From contig CALXTP010000027.1 in assembly GCA_944391435.1 (NCBI GenBank), forward strand, positions 1 to 41,526: DNA of 41,526 bases. The letters are read 5' to 3'. This stretch comes from an uncultured Alphaproteobacteria bacterium. GTDB lineage: Bacteria; Pseudomonadota; Alphaproteobacteria; RF32; CAG-239. Shown here one piece after another: positions 26,342-38,116 of this stretch. A program made the position numbers and the translations under genes. The notes beneath the pieces are model-generated. The model made no database searches. It was not told the origin of the DNA and worked only from the letters and a program-made list of their open reading frames with translations. Position 1 is the stretch's first letter. Every line of letters begins with the position of its first letter.

Positions 26342-29300
26342 TTAATGCTGGTTATTGTCAGGCTTTTCGTCTGTCGTTCCGTCATCTTCAACATATTCCC
26401 ATTCCCAATCCTCATCGTCAGAGGGGACTTCGTTGCCGTCTTCGTCTACATATTCCCATTCCCAATCTTCATCGGAAGCTTCTCCGGAAGCATCGGCGGA
26501 AGAAGAGGAATTTGTATCGGAAGAAACAGGTGCCGTTGCCCCGGCATTGGTTGAAGGCGGAAACTCGGACGTCGGATTGATATCCGCGTAATCATGCTGC
26601 CCGACATTTTCATCATCGTCATAATCATCTAACTCAATAGGCTGATCCAATGATGAAATATCAATATTATCGGTTGTTAATGCTGCCCGGATTCTGTCCA
26701 GCTCGGCACTGTATCTGCTGGGCTTTTCCTCTGACACAGGTGTTGCCGGAATATCGGCAGGGGCGTCCTGTGTCATTGTGCCTTCGGCCCCATTGTTTGC
26801 TGCTTGTCCTGTTATGTCTACAGAAACATCTCCAATTCCGTCAAGTGCAGGTTCTTCCTCCTGGCGGATATTCTTTTCTGCCGCCGATTCCGCGAGAGCC
26901 GCTGAAGCATCGGCAGACATATTGTCCGCAAACGGTTCATTAACAACAGTTGATATCGGCTCAACATTCGGTGCAGCCGTTTGAGAAAACGGAGTCTCGT
27001 TGTTCTCTTCCGGTACGGTTAAAAATTGTTGCAAGTCATCAAATGTATCCGGTGAATTTTCCCGTATATCCTGTGCTGGCTCAATATCATCAGCCCTCAC
27101 CGGGGATTCGGTCTGATAATCGGAAATTTCTGTCGGCAGAACGTCAGCGGAATCTGCTGTACTCAATTCCGGGCTGTCCGGTATATTTGCAATCGGCTCG
27201 CCTGTATTCCCGCCATTCAAAAAATCATCTAATGACGGCTCGTCTATTTCGTGCTGCTCATCCATATTTTCACTTGCCTTCGGCGACTGCATGGGCGTAT
27301 CATCAAAAATCTCATGACTTTGCTCTTGCATATCTGTCGGAGTACGTTGTACGGCTGAAGTTTCCACGGGAATATCCTGCCCTTGGATATCGTCAAAACT
27401 CAAAGACGGGATTTGGTGGTCATCTTCGCCAGCATCCGGCGCGGATGTTTCGGGCAAGGCGAAATCCAAGTCGTCATCTTCCTGAATATCGTTAAAATCT
27501 TGCAAAACAGGTTCTGTGGTAGGAGAAAGATTCGCGTCCTCTTTTGTGTCATAAATGTGCTGAGGGAGCTCAAAATCCAAATCCTCATCATCGTTTGAAG
27601 CAAAATCTGTAAGATCAGGAGTGTCAGCGTCAGATGTTGCTTTCACAGCATCCTGTATCTCGGGTTGAGAGGGAGCCTCCTCATCTTCAAAATTAAGGGC
27701 GTCCAAAGAATCTAATGATTGCAACAGCTGGCTGTCTTCCTGTTCATCTGTTTCCGGAATATTGGCAAAAGTGTCTGAAACAGGATTATCCGTTGTTGAA
27801 AAGTTTTCGGCAAAAATCTTTTCTTGCTGCGCAACAGCAGAAACGTGCTCTTCTTCCGGCAATGTGTCTAACGGCGGTACATCCAAACGTATATTGTTAA
27901 AATCATCATTATGCTTAAATTCTTGATTGCGGATAACACCATCAAACTGGGGAATCGGAGATTGTGAAACAGTAGCTGCTGTGCCTGTTGCCGTTGCAGG
28001 CGTAACGGCTGGTTCTATCTTCTTTGCAGCGGGAATTTCCATTCCTTCTGCCGGTCTTGATGTCGGTATATTTTCACGCTTTATATCAGACACGGCATTC
28101 GCCGGCTGCTCGGAACCGGTCGGGAAGCCATTGGCTGATGAAACTGCTGTATCTGCATTGCCGTGATGTTTTTTCTTCTTTTTCTTCTTTTTTCTCGGTT
28201 CGCCGGTAAATTGTGCTACTGGTTCAAAATGAAGCATATTGCCTTCCGGGAAGGAAACATCATCTTCACCTTCGGAAACACCGTCATCGTCAGCAAGCCC
28301 CGCTATATGCGAAACGGGAGAATATTCTTCTGCCGAAGGTAATACTTGAGAATACTTATTTGCGGATTCTGTCTGATGTTCTTTTGCATCTTGTTCCGGT
28401 CGGGACGGTTTCGGAGTTGGAGCATTATTGCCGGACAATGTATCCTGCCGTTGGACAGATTCGGAAAAGGTATTTAATAACGGCGATGCATCTATAACAA
28501 TCTTTTTATCATTAACCGTTTGAGCATATTCTTTAAACATATCCTGCATGGCTCGCAATGAAGCATCTAATTCATTCTTTATCTCGTTGCGAAATGTCTG
28601 TAAACGGTTTTCTACATTCAGATAATCTGAGATTTCCGTATTTTTTTTATTATTTGATGTATAAAGCCCTTCCAACAATTTGGTAATAGATGCCTGCGAT
28701 GCAATAATTCTGTTGTTGAGGTCAGATAAATCCGCATCATCGCGATTTCGGGAAGACAAAATGCCTTCCAAAATACGGGCAATGGAAACTTGTGAGGCTA
28801 TAACGGAATCCGTAACGCTGCGCGTTTCTTTTAACACATCAAGCATAGCAGCCCGCGAAGAGCGTATTTCTTCGGCAATGACATCAAAAGCATTTTCTGC
28901 GCCGGAAGAAAGGACAGCTGTCTCGCCGGCAGAAACGGGAACTTGGTTTTGTTTAAAAGCCAATGCCAGCGCTTTGGCCAGAGCTTCGGCGAAAGAAGAA
29001 TCAATCGTCAGGCTGCCCCCGATGACTGCTCCTCCGGCAGCTTGAACCGGAGCCGGCGCATCTATTTTTCCCGCTCCCTCGTCAAAGTCTTCCCTATTGG
29101 CTTTAACAAAAGATATGCCTCGTTCGGTCTTGACTTTTTCAATATGTTCAACCAAAAGACGGCCACCGGGCATTCGCTTAAAAAAATCCGTAATTTCCGG
29201 AGGTAGCGCCAACAATTCGTTATCAAACTCTTCCCTTTTGTTCTTATTAAAAATGTGAACCTGCCTGAAGATATTTAAATAACGTTGTGCAACTAAAATC

Positions 29301-29356
29301 GGCGCTTCTTTGCCGTCATTGTCACTGCCAAACTCTACATCATTTAAATTTTCCAC
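26342..29356 (-). CDS. Large acidic protein with Trp-rich C-terminal repeats
   Basis: 1004 residues, GTG start, no signal peptide or membrane helix. Residues 1-100 look globular. About 105-320 are helical, with a near-duplicate unit (VIASQVSIARILEGI and IIASQASITKLLEGL, about 33 residues apart). A poly-Lys stretch (K8 then HH) is at about 390-400. The remainder is acidic low-complexity sequence of Asp, Glu, Ser, Pro and Thr, ending in two copies of DEDWEWEYV 19 residues apart, close to the C terminus. The family is not recognised. It could be a structural scaffold or a secreted substrate of the neighbouring apparatus; its acidic, C-terminally repeated end leaves both open. Confidence 0.75.
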   Translation of the reverse strand: MENLNDVEFGSDNDGKEAPILVAQRYLNIFRQVHIFNKNKREEFDNELLALPPEITDFFKRMPGGRLLVEHIEKVKTERGISFVKANREDFDEGAGKIDAPAPVQAAGGAVIGGSLTIDSSFAEALAKALALAFKQNQVPVSAGETAVLSSGAENAFDVIAEEIRSSRAAMLDVLKETRSVTDSVIASQVSIARILEGILSSRNRDDADLSDLNNRIIASQASITKLLEGLYTSNNKKNTEISDYLNVENRLQTFRNEIKNELDASLRAMQDMFKEYAQTVNDKKIVIDASPLLNTFSESVQRQDTLSGNNAPTPKPSRPEQDAKEHQTESANKYSQVLPSAEEYSPVSHIAGLADDDGVSEGEDDVSFPEGNMLHFEPVAQFTGEPRKKKKKKKKHHGNADTAVSSANGFPTGSEQPANAVSDIKRENIPTSRPAEGMEIPAAKKIEPAVTPATATGTAATVSQSPIPQFDGVIRNQEFKHNDDFNNIRLDVPPLDTLPEEEHVSAVAQQEKIFAENFSTTDNPVSDTFANIPETDEQEDSQLLQSLDSLDALNFEDEEAPSQPEIQDAVKATSDADTPDLTDFASNDDEDLDFELPQHIYDTKEDANLSPTTEPVLQDFNDIQEDDDLDFALPETSAPDAGEDDHQIPSLSFDDIQGQDIPVETSAVQRTPTDMQEQSHEIFDDTPMQSPKASENMDEQHEIDEPSLDDFLNGGNTGEPIANIPDSPELSTADSADVLPTEISDYQTESPVRADDIEPAQDIRENSPDTFDDLQQFLTVPEENNETPFSQTAAPNVEPISTVVNEPFADNMSADASAALAESAAEKNIRQEEEPALDGIGDVSVDITGQAANNGAEGTMTQDAPADIPATPVSEEKPSRYSAELDRIRAALTTDNIDISSLDQPIELDDYDDDENVGQHDYADINPTSEFPPSTNAGATAPVSSDTNSSSSADASGEASDEDWEWEYVDEDGNEVPSDDEDWEWEYVEDDGTTDEKPDNNQH
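26391..26467 (-). repeat. DWEWEYV tandem repeat
   Basis: Two identical 20-base copies at 26391-26410 and 26448-26467, 57 bases apart (19 codons), encoding DWEWEYV plus flanking acidic residues. Identity at DNA level suggests a recent duplication or gene conversion. Confidence 0.8.
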
Positions 29357-29401: not shown

Positions 29402-30379
29402 TTACAAAGCAATATCCACAACCTTATGAATTTTTTTGAAATCATCGTTGCTGAAATAAATGCGTTCTTCTGGATTCCACATCAAGCCGTAAAGCTGTCC
29501 TGTTTCATCTTCCCTGACGCTGACAACGAAAGCTTTTTGTTCTGTTGTGTAATAAAGGGCAATGTCGCCGACGCTTGCAACTTCGCTCGGTGCAACAAAC
29601 ATAATGGCTCTGTTGGACAAGATGGAGCCGAGTCTTCTTGTGCACAGGCTGACGCCATAAACGTCCCTCTTATCACAAAGATTCGCCGGCTTGACGGCTT
29701 CTTTGGATGAAGAATTCCTGTCAATAACGATAGAGCCGTCTGCGCCCGAAGCGCCGAATACCGGAACTTTTAACGTGTCTAAATCAATATATCCGCTGCC
29801 ATTATGGTCGTTAACGGGTCTGCTGATGGCCGCAATCTTGTATTTCGTGTCATTATGGGCAATAATTTCTTCCAAAGCACCTTTTTCATCAAGGCGCTTG
29901 ATTTCAGCCTTCAAAGCATCAACATCCATGCCCAGGGCATTGGCAATATTTTTGTATTCTTTGTCGGAAACTTCGCGTTGTCCCATTTCTATGCGGTGGT
30001 ATACAGAAAGTGTCATATCCGCATTTTCGGCAACTTCAATCAAAGTCAACGACTTTTCGTTTCTGATATATCGCAGAGCGGCACCCAAAACTTTTAAGCC
30101 GCTGTTGCGGTTAATTTCCTGCCGTCTTTCCTGCTCTTTTTTCCAAGACATGACAACTTCATGCTGTGAATTTTGTTCATTAACATACAAGTCTTGCAAA
30201 GAACAATCCAATATTTCGGCAACCAAGATAAGCTGTTCTTGGTTAAGTCTCCTGTATCCTTTTTCTATTTTGGATATGGCAGAAAGGCTGATGCCTAGTC
30301 TGTCGGCCAGGTCTTGCATAGAAACGCCGCGCATTTTACGGTTAATCCTGATTTGGTTCGGAAATACAATTTCTTCCAT
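29402..30379 (-). CDS. Double-HTH (XRE) regulator with S24-like C-terminal domain
   Basis: 325 residues from the ATG at 30379, with GAGG upstream. Two XRE-type helix-turn-helix domains are seen, at about 8-64 (SMQDLADRLGISLSAISKIE) and 98-156 (TLIEVAENADMTLSVYHRIE). From about 200 the sequence resembles the LexA/S24 fold: VPVFGASGADGS, DVYGVSLC, VGDIALYY, GLMWNPEERIYF and a closing HKVVDIAL. The Ser of the usual GDSM motif is replaced by a CTRR segment, so self-cleavage is unlikely. It lies between the VirB6-like array and the acidic-protein cluster and may control either. Confidence 0.85.
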   Translation of the reverse strand: MEEIVFPNQIRINRKMRGVSMQDLADRLGISLSAISKIEKGYRRLNQEQLILVAEILDCSLQDLYVNEQNSQHEVVMSWKKEQERRQEINRNSGLKVLGAALRYIRNEKSLTLIEVAENADMTLSVYHRIEMGQREVSDKEYKNIANALGMDVDALKAEIKRLDEKGALEEIIAHNDTKYKIAAISRPVNDHNGSGYIDLDTLKVPVFGASGADGSIVIDRNSSSKEAVKPANLCDKRDVYGVSLCTRRLGSILSNRAIMFVAPSEVASVGDIALYYTTEQKAFVVSVREDETGQLYGLMWNPEERIYFSNDDFKKIHKVVDIAL

Positions 30380-30416
30380 AGCTATATACCTCATACAAAA
30401 ATAATTTTACATTATA

Positions 30417-30617: not shown

Positions 30618-33600
30618 TTATAAAATTTTTCCAATAAGGCGTCCGCTGCTGTCATAGGCCATGCCATTGCTGATACGGCCGATAGAAGTGCCGTTGCTGT
30701 TAAGTATATTTCCGCTGGCATCGGCTTGGCCGATAATATTTCCGTTAAAATCGGCAACATCCAAAGTGTCAACTGTATGGCTGGTGGACGTATGAAGTCG
30801 GTTGGCGCCTTTGTGCCGCATTTTAACCAATACGTCGTCTTTAATGTAGTCTTTCATATTTTTTCCGTTGACCTTTTCTCTGGTTTGGGCATCAAAACCT
30901 TGGAACAAATCGCCTTTGTAGCCGTCTTCTCCTGCGTGTGCCGGATCCAAATCGCGGGCAACGGTACCGTTTTTCTCTATAATTTGGTTGCCGTCAATCC
31001 TGTCTGAAATATGATCATGCCCTCGCTGTGCATATTCGGAAAAGCTTGCCGTTGTTTTTTCTCCGGCTGTTTTTGCCGAACCGTCGCGGATATCGCCCTC
31101 TGTTTTTCTTCCTGTTTCGTTAATGTTAAGCAGCCCGTTGCTTCTGTATCGCATATAAGTGCCGCTATATTTTTCATTGCTTTCCGCATAGCTGTTTCCA
31201 TAAGAAGTGGAAGATGATCCGTCAATATTTTTCTGGCGTGTCCGTGTAGCATCTATATGTTTTGTTTTTGTTTTAAGTACATTGCCTTTTTTATCAAGAT
31301 ATTCCGTAATCACTTCATTGTTTTTATATATAGTACGTTCGGTCTTCTGTCTGAAAAGTCCTGCTTTTCTCTCCGTCTGATAAGTTATTTCGCCGGTTGC
31401 GGCATCCGTATGGCTGGACAATTTTTGCGAACCCCAAAAACTGTGTAGAGTCGTCTTCCTGTCGCCCGTGGCAGATGTAGGGGCAAAAGCAGCATCCAGC
31501 TTATCTTGCATATCCTGTCGTTTCTGGTTGTAACCGCTCAGTTTGGCGCTGGTATCGTGCTGAATTTCCACCCCGTTACGGCTATAAGTCTTTTTAACTG
31601 TCGGTCCGAAAAATCCGAAACGTTTTGTTTCTCTTTCATAGTACTGCTGCCCGTTGGCATCCTTTTTGGCGGTATAAGAAACAAAAGCCCCGGCTTTCCA
31701 GGTGTAAGAGCCGTCTCCGTTATCATGCCCGGCACGTCTTATCATGCTGTTTAAGGCTGCAATGTTAAGCTTGCGCCCAAGGCGTTTTCTGCCGGTTGTT
31801 GCTGCCGTTTCAATGCTGTTTTTATCTCTTTGGACAAGGTAATCCGTAAAAACTTGTCCGGTTGCTGAATCTATATCTAAACTAAGGGTGGTCAGTTTTC
31901 CTGTATTATCCATCTGTTCCATTCGTAGCGAAAAAGGATGGCTGGGGTCAAATTCCACATTGCGAGATGAAAAATAAGCGCCGACATCTTGTCCCGTCCT
32001 GGCCTTGTTAATTTCTATAGCCAACTGTGTCATAATGTCTTTAAGGTTTTCCGGGTCTTTGGCCAGGTCGGAATTCATAAGAGTTTCAAGTGCCCCTTTG
32101 TTGATAAAGCCGTTTTTATCCATCAAATGGTCTTTAACAAAACCGTGTTTGAATTTAACCTGCGTTCGTATTGTTTTTCCCGAAGCTGTTTTTTCCCTTT
32201 TTATGGTGGCATATTTATCGGCCAGCATGGTATGGGTGCGCCCCGTAATAGATTTAAAATCGCGATGCAAAACATCTGTCCCGTCCGCGTTCCTGTCCAA
32301 TGAAAAAGTATAGCCGAGCATTCGCAGAGTCTTTCCGCCTGTGCTGTTGGTTTTGCCAAAGAGTTTGACCCCGGCTTTGGCGGTTTGACGAACACCAGCC
32401 TGCATACGCCGTTTGGTAACACGTCCGGCTCTTTTCGCCGCCGTCCCGGCTGCACCGACGGCCCAATCTGCCGCTTTCCTCGTTTTGGAATCAACGGTCT
32501 GTTTGACAGCAGCCCCGATTTTTTGTGCCGCGCTAATTCCCAATGACCCTTTGGAAAAATTGTCGGCCAAATCAACAATAACCGGCATATATGCCCAGCC
32601 GATAACCAGAATAAAAATAATTTTGAGCATATTGGGTCCGTAAAAGGCCAATCCTTTATTCGGGTTTTCAAAAAATACTTTCGGGTCGCTCGTATTTTCC
32701 ATTGCCCCTAATAGTAAGTTATTGATATACCCAAGGATACACATAATCAGGATAGCCATAAACATAAAGACGAATAAGGAATGTAAAATCCAAGAGAAAA
32801 CTTTGGATAAATAGCTGCGCGTTCCTTGAAAAGCGTATCCGCAGACGGCAAAGGGCAGAAAAGCCATGGCTATGCCGAGTTGCAATACGGCATCGGCCAT
32901 AACCCAAGGGTAGGCAACCATAAAAAACACGCCAGCCAGGTAAAGCAGTATGCCGTCAATGATGTAAATTGGATTCGGAATAACGTAAAAAAGGCGGTCA
33001 GGCCCGTTGCCGCGGCATAATCCCCAGCGACCAAACTCAAACAAAAGATTGATTTTTCGTTCAATATCCTCAACGGCGCAAACAATAGACGTCCCGACGC
33101 TCATGGGGAGTCCGCCGTTGGTACCCGAACCGGCACTGCCGCTGTAACCGATAATGCCGTCGGCGTTGGCACAGGTCGTATTACCGCTTTTTACAAAAGA
33201 CAACCCCGTATCAAAAATAGGAGAAAGCGTCAGGTTCAAGATATTGTAATAATCTTTGGCGACAATAATATAAATGGCAATACCGACAAACGTTTTGGTA
33301 AAAATGTCATTAAGCAGTGCGTTGGGATCTTTAGAGCCCATGGTTGCAATATTGCGCAATATAATAAGCGCCAGAGACACGGCCAAAAAGATAATAATGA
33401 GCTGGCCGAGTTCGGAAGAAAAAGCCTCATAAGATTTTGCAGCCACATAGCTTCCCGCATTAAAAAGAACCTTAAACATTTGGCAAAACATACAATCAAC
33501 CTTGTCTACAGTCGGTGTAACGCAGTTGGTTTCGGTATCTATGCCGAGCGTTTTTGCCAACAGAGCCCCGGCCTTGTCTTCTATGTCGGCGTATGATGGT

Positions 33601-33674
33601 TTTGTTATCAATAAAACAAACAGCAAAACCAGTGCCGACAGTTTATTAGATATATATGCCCGAATCATATTCAT
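30618..33674 (-). CDS. VirB6-like protein with 550-residue C-terminal extension
   Basis: 1018 residues from the ATG at 33674 (AAGGTG upstream; a GTG at 33683 is also possible). Signal peptide, then the periplasmic VDCMFCQMF motif. A TrbL/VirB6-type polytopic core follows to about residue 390, with LGQLIIIFLAVSLALIILRN and the long central loop. After a basic Ala/Lys/Arg-rich linker comes a ~550-residue hydrophilic extension containing many short beta-like units (YSRNGVEI, LDKKGNVLKTKTK). It ends with NGMAYDSSGRLIGKIL, preceded by GNIIGQADASGNIL. Extended VirB6 proteins are typical of the rickettsial rvh system. It is the last of the array. Confidence 0.85.
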   Translation of the reverse strand: MNMIRAYISNKLSALVLLFVLLITKPSYADIEDKAGALLAKTLGIDTETNCVTPTVDKVDCMFCQMFKVLFNAGSYVAAKSYEAFSSELGQLIIIFLAVSLALIILRNIATMGSKDPNALLNDIFTKTFVGIAIYIIVAKDYYNILNLTLSPIFDTGLSFVKSGNTTCANADGIIGYSGSAGSGTNGGLPMSVGTSIVCAVEDIERKINLLFEFGRWGLCRGNGPDRLFYVIPNPIYIIDGILLYLAGVFFMVAYPWVMADAVLQLGIAMAFLPFAVCGYAFQGTRSYLSKVFSWILHSLFVFMFMAILIMCILGYINNLLLGAMENTSDPKVFFENPNKGLAFYGPNMLKIIFILVIGWAYMPVIVDLADNFSKGSLGISAAQKIGAAVKQTVDSKTRKAADWAVGAAGTAAKRAGRVTKRRMQAGVRQTAKAGVKLFGKTNSTGGKTLRMLGYTFSLDRNADGTDVLHRDFKSITGRTHTMLADKYATIKREKTASGKTIRTQVKFKHGFVKDHLMDKNGFINKGALETLMNSDLAKDPENLKDIMTQLAIEINKARTGQDVGAYFSSRNVEFDPSHPFSLRMEQMDNTGKLTTLSLDIDSATGQVFTDYLVQRDKNSIETAATTGRKRLGRKLNIAALNSMIRRAGHDNGDGSYTWKAGAFVSYTAKKDANGQQYYERETKRFGFFGPTVKKTYSRNGVEIQHDTSAKLSGYNQKRQDMQDKLDAAFAPTSATGDRKTTLHSFWGSQKLSSHTDAATGEITYQTERKAGLFRQKTERTIYKNNEVITEYLDKKGNVLKTKTKHIDATRTRQKNIDGSSSTSYGNSYAESNEKYSGTYMRYRSNGLLNINETGRKTEGDIRDGSAKTAGEKTTASFSEYAQRGHDHISDRIDGNQIIEKNGTVARDLDPAHAGEDGYKGDLFQGFDAQTREKVNGKNMKDYIKDDVLVKMRHKGANRLHTSTSHTVDTLDVADFNGNIIGQADASGNILNSNGTSIGRISNGMAYDSSGRLIGKIL

Positions 33675-33685
33675 AACCGTCACCT

Positions 33686-34612
33686 TTACTTCTTTGTTTT
33701 AGCCATTTGTTTACCGTAACGTGCCAAGGTCCGTCCAAAGAAAGAATTACTTTTTTCGCCGCGAGCCTGGAGTCGTTTACCCGTTTGATGTTTAATCACA
33801 TCGTTGCCGTATTTGCCTACTTTGCCAATAGTTCTTTTGTTAACAGCAGCAACAATCTGACTTATCCTGTCGCTTAAAGGCTGGCCGGCCATCGATCCGT
33901 CAAAGAAATGTTTGCAAAATTCATCTGCCATCAGCGGAATCATACGCATCGCTACCAGATAAGAAACCAAAACTTTGAGGAATGTCAGTGTAAAAACACC
34001 AAGTTTGTCACGAATGATGTCAGATTTGTCTTCGTCAAAAATAGCCTTAATATCGGTATCTTGGCCAAAGGATGCGTTAATAATGGTATCAACGATTTCT
34101 GCTCCGATAAGGATTCCCAGCGGCAAAAAGATAAACAAGCCGGTATAATAAGCGATTCCCTCAACAACGGGCTGGAGTTTGTCTCTTGTCCAGGCAAAGG
34201 GCCACAATGCCAGCGCCAAAGGCAGCAAGACAATGCATAATGACAGGTTAAACGCCACATCAAACATATAAAAAGAGGCGATAACGGAAATAAAGAACCC
34301 CAATACGTATAAAATACAGCCGCTGATAAAAATATCAAATGCGATAAGTTTAATTTCTATAATAACTTTAATACGGAAAGCAGCTTCTCCGTAAATGGAG
34401 TTGCATATAAGCATATCGCCGATTTTCATCATCTGATTGGTAGCTTTGTTAATTTGGTCGGCCATTTTTTTCACGCCGTTTATCAGATTATTCATTGCAG
34501 TAATTTCCTGTCCCGCAATGGATATTTCGGGAGAAGCCCCCTGCGCCATTACCCCCGGTGCGGTGAACAGCAGAGCAAGGAAAAGAAAAATATATCGCAG
34601 AAACTTCTTCAT
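33686..34612 (-). CDS. VirB6-like C-terminal half (split unit, part 2)
   Basis: 308 residues with its own signal peptide (MKKFLRYIFLFLALLFTAPG) and an AAGGAGGA ribosome site. The mature sequence begins in what corresponds to the periplasmic loop of the intact paralogues and then has GDMLICNSIYGEAAF, parallel to GEAMICNSIRGTFN in the 36446-38116 paralogue. Membrane helices and a basic C-terminal tail (KRLQARGEKSNSFFGRTLAR) follow. It lacks the N-terminal helices and CxxC motif, which are supplied by the gene 12 bp upstream. Together the two make one full VirB6-like unit of about 475 residues. Confidence 0.82.
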   Translation of the reverse strand: MKKFLRYIFLFLALLFTAPGVMAQGASPEISIAGQEITAMNNLINGVKKMADQINKATNQMMKIGDMLICNSIYGEAAFRIKVIIEIKLIAFDIFISGCILYVLGFFISVIASFYMFDVAFNLSLCIVLLPLALALWPFAWTRDKLQPVVEGIAYYTGLFIFLPLGILIGAEIVDTIINASFGQDTDIKAIFDEDKSDIIRDKLGVFTLTFLKVLVSYLVAMRMIPLMADEFCKHFFDGSMAGQPLSDRISQIVAAVNKRTIGKVGKYGNDVIKHQTGKRLQARGEKSNSFFGRTLARYGKQMAKTKK

Positions 34613-34624
34613 GCTTTTTCCTCC

Positions 34625-35128
34625 TTAAAAGCTGACCGCCCCGGCAAGTGTTTCGCCGATATCAAAACCGATGCTGAGCATGGGATTGACGATATATTGA
34701 ACCAAAACATCTATGCCGGCGGTAACAAGGGCATAAACTAACGCCACTTTAAAACAAAACGTAAGCAGCCCGTCAATAATTTTGGCCGGATCCTGCGTTG
34801 CAAAAGAGCCGAGCGATTTTAAGAAATATAGTGCTATCCAAATGGCGGAGCCGAGCGTTAAAATAAGTTTGGCAGCTTCCACGGTTGTGCCATACAGGGT
34901 GCCGGCAATCGTTGTAAGTGATATCATAAGATTTTCAATAATTTCGCAAGACCAACAACCTGCTTTTTCATATTCTTCATCAATAATTTCGGATGAACAG
35001 TATGTGAGGTAATCATCATCGCAAAACGCCGTTTCAGCAAGCAGCAAAGCGCAGCAGAAAACACTGGCCGTTACCACAAATTTGTGCTGGCAAATAAACT
35101 GCAGGAATATGTTAATAATCATCGTCAT
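34625..35128 (-). CDS. VirB6-like N-terminal half (split unit, part 1)
   Basis: 167 residues. Signal peptide ending around ETAFC, then the conserved periplasmic Cys motif in AGCWSCEIIENL. The first membrane segments of the family follow (LTLGSAIWIALYFLKSLGSF with ATQDPA, then FKVALVYALVTAG). It stops after MLSIGFDIGETLAGAVSF, exactly where the paralogues enter the large periplasmic loop. No frameshift remnant joins it to the next gene, which has its own signal peptide. The ATG overlaps the preceding stop by 4 bp. A two-component VirB6 is the simplest reading. Confidence 0.8.
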   Translation of the reverse strand: MTMIINIFLQFICQHKFVVTASVFCCALLLAETAFCDDDYLTYCSSEIIDEEYEKAGCWSCEIIENLMISLTTIAGTLYGTTVEAAKLILTLGSAIWIALYFLKSLGSFATQDPAKIIDGLLTFCFKVALVYALVTAGIDVLVQYIVNPMLSIGFDIGETLAGAVSF

Positions 35129-36429
35129 TCGTTATACCCCGCTAATGAATTGATTGCCGAAGATGTTTTGCTTTTTGCCTGTTTGATGGAGTCCAATGCT
35201 TCCCGGGATTTTTCATATTTTTCCATAGTGGTTGTAATGGTGGAAGTCGCTCCGCCTGAAACGCCGGCCAAAATAGCCGCACCGGCACGTTTTGCCGTGT
35301 TCATGACAAATTGTGTAACCTGTTTTTGAAATTCCAGGCCTCGTCCGCCGCCGATAAACTTGTCCGCCATAACAACCCCAAGTCCCGGAATATTGATAAG
35401 CAGGAAAGAAATCAGCAGTAATGACAGCATAACCGGTCCCGGATTGGACAGATTCTTGTTTTCATAGGCACCGCTTCCTTCAAAATTGCCCAAAGTTGTT
35501 TCCAAAGCGCCGATGGCAATACAAATAAGTATTCCTATAAACAACATAATACCCGATGAATTCAAGAACATCAGAAAACCGTGTTTGCTCCATTTTCGCG
35601 TATAATTAAAAGGAACCCCCATAATCAGCAACGGAAACAATAAGGCAGCAAAATTCATCCTGAACAGGGCATCAACCAAAAAGAATATAAAGCCAAATTT
35701 GGCACACGTAAATATCAGAAGCATGGTTAAGCCGACAAGGATAGAATCAAGTTCAAGCAGGGCAATAAGCTCAATGCCGAGTCGGATGCCGGCATTGAGC
35801 CTGTCATTAATCTGGCAGGCAAGGCAGCTTGCCATCGGTTGGATGGAACTTTGCAAAGAATCCGCATTAAGTTCTTGTACTTCACAGCTTGTATATGAGG
35901 TATTAAAAGTAACCGTTCCGAAAATGCCAAGATTAACCGATCCGCCGGATTTTATATTGCCGAGGATGGCGGAGCCCAATTCCAAAATGGCGTTATAAAT
36001 CGGGATAACAAACGTATTAAGCGTCCAGGATATCATTCCTCCGTCGCTGACGGCCCAGGCACAAAAAGCACATAAGAATAATTTATGCCCGATTTCGGTC
36101 CAGACTTCGCCCAGATTTTCTTCTTTAAACGACGGGAGCACTTTCAGAAGTTTAAAAGCCATCCAGATAGAAAACCCGAGCATGATGATAACGGCGCCGC
36201 CATCGGCAACTTTGGCTGACCCTGCTTTGAATAAATTGTCAATCTGCCCCAACACAATGTCAATGATTTTAGCTTGCCAGCAAGCCGCCTGTTCTTCATA
36301 ATTGGTATCTTTGCCGGAAGACAGGTCATCATCATCTTTGCATGCGGCAAGAAGCATGATAATGGCAATGCCGAACAAGCGTTTCAGCATCTTCACGGTA
36401 AATATTTTATATATCAGCTCCCGTATCAT
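35125..36429 (-). CDS. VirB6-like predicted lipoprotein
   Basis: 434 residues. The N-terminal signal has a lipobox, LAAC, with Cys30 followed by KDDDD, so it may be lipidated. The core follows the VirB6-like pattern: IIMLGFSIWMAFKLLKVLPSF near the N terminus, a large loop, and several later helices such as LDSILVGLTMLLIFTCAKFGF. The second Cys of the family CxxC is replaced (ACWQA), and a CLAC pair appears in the loop (MASCLACQINDR). GAGG precedes the ATG. It lies in the middle of the array, coupled to the split unit by a 4-bp overlap. Confidence 0.82.
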   Translation of the reverse strand: MIRELIYKIFTVKMLKRLFGIAIIMLLAACKDDDDLSSGKDTNYEEQAACWQAKIIDIVLGQIDNLFKAGSAKVADGGAVIIMLGFSIWMAFKLLKVLPSFKEENLGEVWTEIGHKLFLCAFCAWAVSDGGMISWTLNTFVIPIYNAILELGSAILGNIKSGGSVNLGIFGTVTFNTSYTSCEVQELNADSLQSSIQPMASCLACQINDRLNAGIRLGIELIALLELDSILVGLTMLLIFTCAKFGFIFFLVDALFRMNFAALLFPLLIMGVPFNYTRKWSKHGFLMFLNSSGIMLFIGILICIAIGALETTLGNFEGSGAYENKNLSNPGPVMLSLLLISFLLINIPGLGVVMADKFIGGGRGLEFQKQVTQFVMNTAKRAGAAILAGVSGGATSTITTTMEKYEKSREALDSIKQAKSKTSSAINSLAGYNE

Positions 36430-36445: not shown

Positions 36446-38116
36446 TTAAATCGGCTTGCCGTCTGCGTCATACTGTTGTTCATCACTGCTGCCATCAGTA
36501 TGAGTAACTTTTTCAGAAGCAACCTGACCATTTCCATGAAAAGTTTGCTCATCGCTACTACCATCGGTATGAGTAATTTTTTTGGTCTCAAGATTACCGT
36601 TTTCATCAAAAGATTGGTCTTCAATATCGCCGTTTTGCCGAACCGTCTGGACATTTCTTAATCTGTGGTTTGCATCAAAATTCCGCGTGATAGTGCTGCC
36701 GTCATCGCCCTGTACGACATCCTGCAGCGGTCCGGCGGCAAGCGGAGTCTGTGCTTTATGCCAAAAAGCCCTGTATCCCTGTCTTCCGGTACCCGTCAGG
36801 GTTCCGCGGATTTCCTCAACTTTGTTGCCGCCCCAGGCATAGGCTTTGTCCAGGCGAGTCATTCTGGCTGCGGCTGCACCCGTGCGCTTGCTGGCCGTAA
36901 GCCCCCAGTTTCCGGTAGCTTTGGCAATGCGTTTTCCAGCACCGGAAACAGGCTTCATAACCGCAGCGCCCACCTGGCTGCCGGCAGAAGTTGGAGTGCC
37001 GCTGTCGGCAATCTTATCGGCCAGTTTGCCGATATGGGCGGCCAGTTGCACAATGACGCAGAAGCAGACGATGGTAAACAGCAAAGAGCCGTTGCTCCAC
37101 AATTCCTTGGCAATTTCTTTAACCTGATTATCATCAATATTTGCGCTAAGATTAGTCAAAAAGCTGTTTAGGGCAGGGCTTTGCGAACCGCTTTCATATG
37201 AGCCCATACATAAATCAACCAGCTGCATGGAAAGCCCCATCACGATTCCCAGCATAACAAAGCTGGCAAATACATTCAAGAAGATACTCCAGATGTTTTT
37301 GGAATAGGTAGAAGTCAAACCGGAAATTGCGGCAGCCACGCCAAAAGGCAGGAGAATTGCCCCGAATGTCAGGCGAATAAGAATATCCACAATATAAAAA
37401 GATATACCGACCAAAAGCACCCACCCGAAAACAAACAGGATAAAACCATAAAACAACATCAGCCAATACCATTTAAAGATATTAAAGGTACCACGTATGG
37501 AATTGCATATCATGGCCTCGCCAATGGCAATTGTCCGGTACAATTGGTCATTAAACTGTTTAACCGCTTCGTTAACCATCTCAAAAATAGCAGCATATCC
37601 GGTACCGCTGGGCGTAGCCAGCCGTGCCCCCTCAACGGATAAGGTTGAGCCGATATTAAGCCCCGCTTGCAAAATCGGGCTGATGATTTTATTGATAAAA
37701 AAGGAGCTGCTTTCATTTTCCTGTAACAAAAGCACGATAACCGTTGTTTTGAACATCAAAATTAAAATGCCCTTTTTATCTCCGGTTAAAAAGTCGGCAG
37801 CATTTTGTTTGCCGAAAGAGCCGACATTTTTAAGCACGGCCATGGCAATATAAATGGCGGAAGCCAAAACGACTAACGGGATAAGGTCAAGGTGGAAAGT
37901 ATCCCATGATTTTGTTGCCGCGCTGGTTGCTGCTTCCGTGATAATCTTAAACAGGCGGCATAACAGGCAGTTGTTATGTGTGCTGAGACCGTCATTAAGA
38001 TAATCCTGAATAGTCGGACATTCTTTGCAGGCCGTCAAAAACAAGGTAAAGAATACGGCAAGCAGCATTTTCCGCTTTTCAAACATTTCCTTTAATGTCA
38101 TTCCCACCCTATACAT
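36446..38116 (-). CDS. VirB6-like predicted lipoprotein with YD-like C-terminal repeats
   Basis: 556 residues, start at 38116 with GGAG seven bases upstream. Lipobox LTAC with Cys30, then NNCLLCRLFKII, the array's CxxC motif. VirB6-type helices include LVVLASAIYIAMAVLKNVGSF and the GEAMICNSIRG segment. After the last helix and a basic linker, the C-terminal ~100 residues are four degenerate repeats of about 23 residues with the pattern DGS...F/Y-D-x-NG, like YD/RHS repeats. This domain is hydrophilic and has no parallel in the 455-residue paralogue upstream. Position: second in the array. Confidence 0.84.
   Translation of the reverse strand: MYRVGMTLKEMFEKRKMLLAVFFTLFLTACKECPTIQDYLNDGLSTHNNCLLCRLFKIITEAATSAATKSWDTFHLDLIPLVVLASAIYIAMAVLKNVGSFGKQNAADFLTGDKKGILILMFKTTVIVLLLQENESSSFFINKIISPILQAGLNIGSTLSVEGARLATPSGTGYAAIFEMVNEAVKQFNDQLYRTIAIGEAMICNSIRGTFNIFKWYWLMLFYGFILFVFGWVLLVGISFYIVDILIRLTFGAILLPFGVAAAISGLTSTYSKNIWSIFLNVFASFVMLGIVMGLSMQLVDLCMGSYESGSQSPALNSFLTNLSANIDDNQVKEIAKELWSNGSLLFTIVCFCVIVQLAAHIGKLADKIADSGTPTSAGSQVGAAVMKPVSGAGKRIAKATGNWGLTASKRTGAAAARMTRLDKAYAWGGNKVEEIRGTLTGTGRQGYRAFWHKAQTPLAAGPLQDVVQGDDGSTITRNFDANHRLRNVQTVRQNGDIEDQSFDENGNLETKKITHTDGSSDEQTFHGNGQVASEKVTHTDGSSDEQQYDADGKPI
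36476..36574 (-). repeat. THTDGSSDEQ repeats in VirB6-like C terminus
   Basis: Two copies encoding THTDGSSDEQ at 36476-36505 and 36545-36574, 69 bases apart. They differ at five codons out of ten and every difference is synonymous, so the peptide is conserved while the DNA has drifted. More degenerate copies lie upstream in the same gene. Confidence 0.8.

Follow-up and report, generated by a model that had tools for sequence, protein, structure and literature searches.

Is a VirB6 gene that lies in two adjacent pieces a broken gene, or does it encode a channel subunit that is made in two parts? VirB6 is among the least understood T4SS subunits on the inner-membrane side, and the question is raised by one of five VirB6-type loci in the window, a stretch of 41,526 nucleotides from an uncultured alphaproteobacterium (contig CALXTP010000027.1). 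The five loci lie in tandem on the minus strand, in the order 455, 556, and 434 aa, a 167 + 308 aa pair, and 1021 aa (Table 1). The original prediction, made from the window alone, was that the pair forms a stable two-part subunit and is not decaying. Our analysis points the same way: very probably, the VirB6 gene was split once and re-fused at least twice, and the two halves reassociate as one subunit of the T4SS stalk.

The upstream half (N-half) has a hydrophobic, signal-like N-terminus and ends in a TAA stop at 34625, and the downstream half (C-half) starts at 34612. Both are read in one frame, in which the TAA is followed by four codons and then an ATG, so no frameshift is involved. Behind its signal-like start, the C-half can be aligned to the central and C-terminal parts of the intact paralogues, resuming at GDMLICNSIYG opposite GEAMICNSIRG of the 556-aa paralogue. 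The two open reading frames, the 12-bp spacer with its GGAGG, the signal-like start of the C-half, and this parallel were all found just as they had been described.

Table 1. Positions of the split pair, its intact paralogues, and two hydrolase-bearing relatives
Feature	Position	Strand	Description
N-half of split VirB6	34625-35128	minus	167 aa; hydrophobic signal/anchor, short Cys-containing stretch, two long helices corresponding to TrwI alpha1-alpha2
Spacer	34613-34624	minus	12 bp; Shine-Dalgarno GGAGG right behind the TAA stop; in frame with both halves
C-half of split VirB6	33686-34612	minus	308 aa; signal peptide, helices corresponding to TrwI 81-273 (periplasmic cone), basic tail
Predicted signal peptide of C-half	34544-34612	minus	residues 1-23, cleavage between GVMA and QGAS; own crude rule, without a trained predictor
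Intact VirB6-type paralogue, 434 aa	35125-36429	minus	upstream neighbour of split pair; lipobox-like N-terminus
Intact VirB6-type paralogue, 556 aa	36446-38116	minus	lipobox-like N-terminus
Intact VirB6-type paralogue, 455 aa	38138-39505	minus	TrbL/VirB6 Pfam match
Intact VirB6-type paralogue, 1021 aa	30618-33683	minus	downstream neighbour of split pair; long C-terminal extension; TrbL/VirB6 Pfam match
M23/VirB6 example	L183:3263-6154	plus	genus g12
SleB-like Hydrolase_2/VirB6 example	L245:740-3073	minus	genus g3

Distribution and junctions of the split gene

A search with the C-half found matches in 16 of the 18 genomes of the window genus (g1), and a C-half profile search matched 136 of 152 family genomes. 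These related genomes are metagenome bins or uncultured isolates as recorded, many from animal gut and rumen samples. A gene was called fused when the N-module profile matched in the same open reading frame as the C-module, and split otherwise. By this call, 129 family genomes were classified as 50 split, 75 fused, and 4 cut at a contig edge; the seven other matched genomes were left unclassified (G025, G071, G078, and G090 with weak best matches only, G122 and G134 with contig-edge fragments, and G143). The same split had been proposed as something to look for in relatives, and these 50 of the 129 genomes have it. The state tracks genus. Split genes were found in g1 (14/16), g3 (22/24, 2 at an edge), g4 (2/2), g5 (3/3), and g14 (9/10, 1 at an edge), and fused genes in all 48 genomes of g2, g6, g7, g8, g9, g10, g11, g13, and g40 as well as in 25 of the 26 from g12 (1 at an edge). 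The fused exceptions within g1 are G013 and G014.

Start-to-stop spacing in the split pairs mostly falls between -4 and +20 bases, with one outlier of 167 (G149), and start and stop are near or overlapping in 49 of the 50. Only two pairs share a frame, while 48 are out of frame. Taken by itself, the window junction, with a single TAA between halves in one frame, looks as a point error or a recent nonsense mutation would leave it, and a sequencing error in the spacer had been named at the outset as an alternative. That alternative is ruled out by the junctions of the 50 genomes, which vary in both frame and length. As the Shine-Dalgarno sequence and signal peptide also recur and dN/dS is well below 1 in both halves, we consider it next to impossible that the pair is a pseudogene fragment or stems from an error in sequencing or assembly. 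The same-frame order of TAA, four codons, and ATG could also let stop-codon read-through yield a joined protein in the window species. This is hardly credible to us, given that its product would have an internal signal peptide and that nearly all split pairs are out of frame, which leaves neither read-through nor sequencing error as a general explanation.

Signal peptides were called with a crude, home-made rule that asks for a hydrophobic core, positive charge, and small residues at the cleavage site. All 50 split C-halves had a signal-peptide-like start by this rule, for which the best-scoring start was picked, a choice that biases toward a positive call, and the fused genes served as a control under the same rule. 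When every start codon in the joint of the fused genes was tried, the rule was satisfied in 1 of the 75. The rule combined with a Shine-Dalgarno match of at least 5/6 held for 39/50 split genes vs 0/75 fused genes. The strongest 11-residue hydropathy in the joint never fell below 2.28 in the split genes and never exceeded 1.8 in the 50 fused genes outside g12. For one genome (G009), the chosen C-half start is probably wrong, and the next ATG fits better.

Substitution rates were compared for nine pairs, giving eighteen half-comparisons with dS above 1 throughout. Among these, six pairs of close split relatives had dN/dS of 0.04-0.18 in the N-half and 0.06-0.11 in the C-half, and the window genome (G000) paired with G008 gave 0.14 and 0.08, respectively. 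Saturated (infinite) dS left three comparisons with no ratio: G000-G014 for both halves and G014-G008 for the N-half. Judging from this divergence, both halves are under purifying selection and not decaying. The proposal of a stable two-part subunit is borne out by that selection, by the split in 14 of the 16 classified genomes of the window genus, and by the signal-like start on every split C-half.

Order of fission and fusion

The history of the split was traced on a trait-free tree, from which both halves were omitted and which was built from the 434-aa paralogue, the core of the 1021-aa paralogue, and the downstream HTH gene. Its rows were 91 of the 129 classified genomes plus one outgroup, with g3 and g12 cut to 9 each and g8 and g11 to 7 each; one g40 genome, which is without the markers, is absent. 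The markers are genes of the VirB6 cluster itself, so the tree is not an independent species tree. On it, the split genera formed one clade (SH-aLRT 100), and the split and fused states need three changes. The two fused g1 genomes sit deep inside the genus with starred support, G014 as sister of the window genome and G013 as sister of G001. AU tests reject a clade of the two fused g1 genes (p 3.3e-4) and likewise a clade made up of the 14 split g1 rows (p 3.2e-6).

Counts of changes alone give no direction between gain and loss, and the direction was taken from the outgroup. The outgroup genome, from another family (G033), has a single fused gene in the same order with the same neighbours, which makes fused the ancestral state. 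In both fused g1 genes, an in-frame linker replaces the stop, Shine-Dalgarno sequence, and signal peptide of their relatives. Together, these observations suggest one old fission in the ancestor of five genera, followed by at least two independent re-fusions that went without the signal peptide. Intact relatives without a signal peptide at the break had been named in advance as a result that would speak against a two-part subunit. Such relatives do exist (G014, G013, and all outgroup genera), yet G014 and G013 are placed as re-fusions on the tree and are not counter-evidence. As re-fusions from a split state, they instead argue for a joint function of the halves.

A different history, in which several lineages underwent independent fissions and G013 and G014 keep the ancestral fused gene, would agree with the fused state in the outgroup and in ten other genera. 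Fission may also be easier than re-fusion, and counts of changes cannot tell one direction from the other. It would, however, call for about eight separate events at one site by our count on the tree, against one fission and two fusions, and it is opposed by the AU tests, by the grouping of all split genera together, and by the deep, starred positions of the two fused genomes within g1. We regard this history as quite improbable, and the single fission with later re-fusions is kept below. A tree of the N- and C-modules recovered the same sister pairs, with support of 96 for G014-G000 and 95 for G013-G001. It leaves the branching among g1, g3, and g4/g5/g14 open, and the branches setting g1 apart are long. 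We also considered that a fused gene was transferred horizontally and rejected this as unlikely, because the halves and their neighbours give the same two sister pairs in their trees.

The cut and the joint in the VirB6 fold

The natural fusion of G014 (locus L084) was modelled with AlphaFold2 from a 93-row alignment, with a mean pLDDT of 81.8 and a pTM of 0.73. Internal pLDDT fell below 50 only at residues 190-192 and 196-204, which lie between the helices 134-184 and 208-244 and mark the joint. The break had been said to fall at a large loop. That description does not fit the window genus, where the joint is a short disordered stretch (about residues 185-207 of the fused homologue); a large one of about 300 aa occurs in another genus only.

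The fused model matched TrwI/VirB6 of R388 with Z 15.6 and rmsd 4.9 over 271 of 272 residues, and DotA second with Z 11.7, values to be read with the caution that helical proteins inflate Z (designed helical repeats score 9.6 on the same model). Model residues 76-408 align to chain residues 2-272. The match begins at TrwI residue 2 opposite model residue 76, which indicates that TrwI is without the N-terminal signal segment. The window C-half modelled alone (pLDDT 79, pTM 0.63) matched TrwI 95-272 with Z 13.0 and rmsd 2.8 over 163 aligned residues, and TrwI 81-273 in another entry with Z 11.4 and rmsd 3.3. For the fused model, the Foldseek E-value of the TrwI match is weak (best 3.5e-3). A PDB sequence search with the alignment profile did not find VirB6, and its best match was TatA (E 0.98). 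Against the Pfam TrbL family (PF04610, cut-off 25.9 bits), the C-half scored 13.4 bits and the N-half had no match, while two intact paralogues scored 27.8 and 26.8 bits in the genome search and 25.5 and 25.3 in a separate scan.

By the available parts of the R388 structure paper, VirB6 has seven helices, of which only alpha1 and alpha2 enter the membrane, an unexpected result; alpha1 is given as the likely VirB2-recruiting site, and the membrane region was left unbuilt in two VirB6 copies (PMC9259494). The top two Foldseek chains for the C-half were 7o3v_I and 7o3v_H, which have 193 and 188 residues vs 260-261 in their sister chains, and we infer that these short chains are the two copies with the unbuilt membrane region. 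The fused homologue thus shares the fold of whole TrwI (PDB 8rt9, 7o3v, 8rtd), and the C-half alone shares it over 81-273, so by position in these models the cut separates the membrane hairpin (alpha1-alpha2) from the periplasmic cone. TrwI of R388 is one chain, whereas the window VirB6 is two, cut after the hairpin. The claim that both halves keep their membrane topology needs refinement here: since R388 has no more than alpha1-alpha2 in the membrane, most of the C-half probably lies in the periplasm, although its hydrophobic helices could still insert. DotA, the Legionella Dot/Icm protochannel (9ngy), has a similar stalk fold in one far longer chain of 857 residues.

The sequence of events we propose is that one VirB6-type gene of the five-member tandem cluster was cut behind its first two long helices, and that the downstream piece acquired a ribosome-binding site and a signal peptide, the pieces staying adjacent under purifying selection. 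The N-half would insert as an inner-membrane hairpin equivalent to TrwI alpha1-alpha2, the part that recruits VirB2 pilin in R388, and the C-half would be exported by its own signal peptide and fold into the periplasmic stalk cone. Joined non-covalently in the periplasm, the two would make up one VirB6 subunit of the T4SS stalk. The C-half has to begin on the periplasmic side and would need a signal peptide for this; in a fused chain the peptide would be superfluous or harmful, which would explain why neither re-fusion has it. The natural cut sits where the R388 structure predicts it to be harmless, and it has been kept across five genera and reversed twice. A cut that is both conserved and reversed is independent evidence for a two-module VirB6 architecture, and the split VirB6 offers a ready-made way to separate pilin recruitment from stalk formation.

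The same joint carries additional domains in two other genera. In g12, about 270-360 residues lie between the N- and C-modules in 24 of the 25 fused proteins. Peptidase M23 was matched by Pfam in 14 of 26 g12 open reading frames (best E 9.1e-30), and HxGxD and HxH, which we take to be M23 motifs, occur in 14 of 25 inserts. In g3, the Pfam family Hydrolase_2, presumably a SleB-type wall hydrolase, was found in 8 of 24 open reading frames with the C-domain and in 1 of 22 N-halves, and in the four cases inspected singly it sits between the signal peptide and the C-module. Pfam found no hydrolase domain in the 29 N and C open reading frames of g14, g5, and g4 or in the 48 of nine other fused genera, which limits the hydrolase link to g12 and g3. 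The g1 genes scanned, namely both halves from the window and the fused gene of G014, also had none. From the protein sequences, there appears to be one periplasmic joint that is cut in one lineage and fitted with wall-cutting domains in others; those of g3 sit on the C-half that the cut has freed. This placement looks as if the job of VirB1 were built into VirB6, and it hints at the site at which the machine may breach the cell wall. In the portions consulted of a paper on VirB1 and the Gram-positive VirB1-like proteins PrgK and Orf14, these are wall hydrolases, including LytM, that serve T4SSs (PMC12857230). They are separate proteins, in contrast to the g12 and g3 hydrolase domains, which are part of VirB6 or attached to it at the joint.

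The extra N-terminal domains on g3 C-halves, some of them cell-wall hydrolases, show that the C-half is able to evolve on its own, and they would suit a C-half that is now a separate periplasmic factor with its own job, so that the halves are no longer one subunit. Against this stand the two re-fusions, which bring back a single chain, the adjacency of the halves with their close or overlapping start and stop, and the complementary parts of one TrwI fold that they cover. A separate factor is accordingly very unlikely in our estimation, and two chains of one subunit is the reading we retain. A more speculative idea, for which we would give little better than a slim chance, is that the cut frees the copy numbers of the two modules. 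The hairpin could then follow the six-fold VirB3/VirB4 inner-membrane complex and the cone stay five-fold, resolving the five-to-six mismatch of R388, and the joint would be a general docking point where some relatives place a wall-cutting enzyme of M23 or SleB-like type, the activity for which other systems have VirB1. With a split VirB6, the symmetry-mismatch question becomes testable, as copies of each half can be counted separately.

Precedents and the surrounding cluster

The split VirB6 is a variant of a known subunit, and its precedents as a fission are the Geobacter pilins and one Rickettsia virB6d. As far as the accessible text describes it, Geobacter PilA-N/PilA-C (GSU1496/GSU1497) is alike in being an exported protein with an inferred fission, adjacent genes, and an own signal peptide on the second piece (PMC5174107). 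It differs in being a pilin and not a channel subunit, and that text describes no re-fusion (PMC5174107). A split virB6d is reported for a single strain, R. bellii OSU 85-389, with no second signal peptide mentioned in the sections seen (PMC2653234), whereas the split described here is fixed in five genera and has a signal peptide on its second piece. A literature search that covered few subscription papers or preprints, some of the sources in part, found neither a conserved fission of VirB6 nor its fusion to an M23 or SleB domain described.

The genome searched is a 1.53-Mb bin of 88 contigs. T4SS genes on its other contigs comprise VirB4 (one match), VirB10, VirD4, VirB9, three VirB8, and two VirB2. 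A search for VirB5 gave no match in this genome and was also silent in every control genome. The set resembles that of the Rickettsiales, whose RvhB6 genes (rvhB6a-e) are likewise five in number, tandem, diverged, and extended, with the T4SS genes scattered (PMC2653234). Several tandem VirB6 paralogues are a trait of the rvh type, and the window genome has five such loci, counting the split one. The rvh type is further marked by duplicated VirB8 and VirB4 and the absence of VirB5; the counts here are three VirB8 genes and one VirB4 match, beside the VirB5 search that was silent in the controls too.

Several further observations were made on the cluster. Paralogues 35125-36429 and 36446-38116 have lipobox-like N-termini (LAAC, LTAC), and in the 434-type, 95 of 120 family genomes show a lipobox pattern close to the N-terminus. 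Lipidation of a polytopic VirB6 would be unusual. RHS/beta-flower-like repeats, with weak Pfam matches, occur in the C-terminal extensions of two paralogues, those of 1021 aa (30618-33683) and 556 aa (36446-38116). Downstream of the cluster, 26342-29356 encodes a very acidic protein of 1004 aa with DWEWEY repeats at its end, and outgroup G033 has a 1106-aa open reading frame in that place. A two-HTH regulator of about 325-330 aa (29402-30394 in the window) follows the cluster in most loci with enough downstream sequence, and it is possible that this protein regulates the VirB6 cluster. In many bins, as at loci L036, L037, L038, L039, L042, L043, and L045, the contig starts 1.4-2.1 kb upstream of the first VirB6 gene, as at the window's right end, and there may be a repeat or variable region upstream of that gene. 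Finally, one VirB10 match (L261, G000:C40:18968-19558) lies inside an open frame of 1473 codons; an ordinary VirB10 is far shorter.
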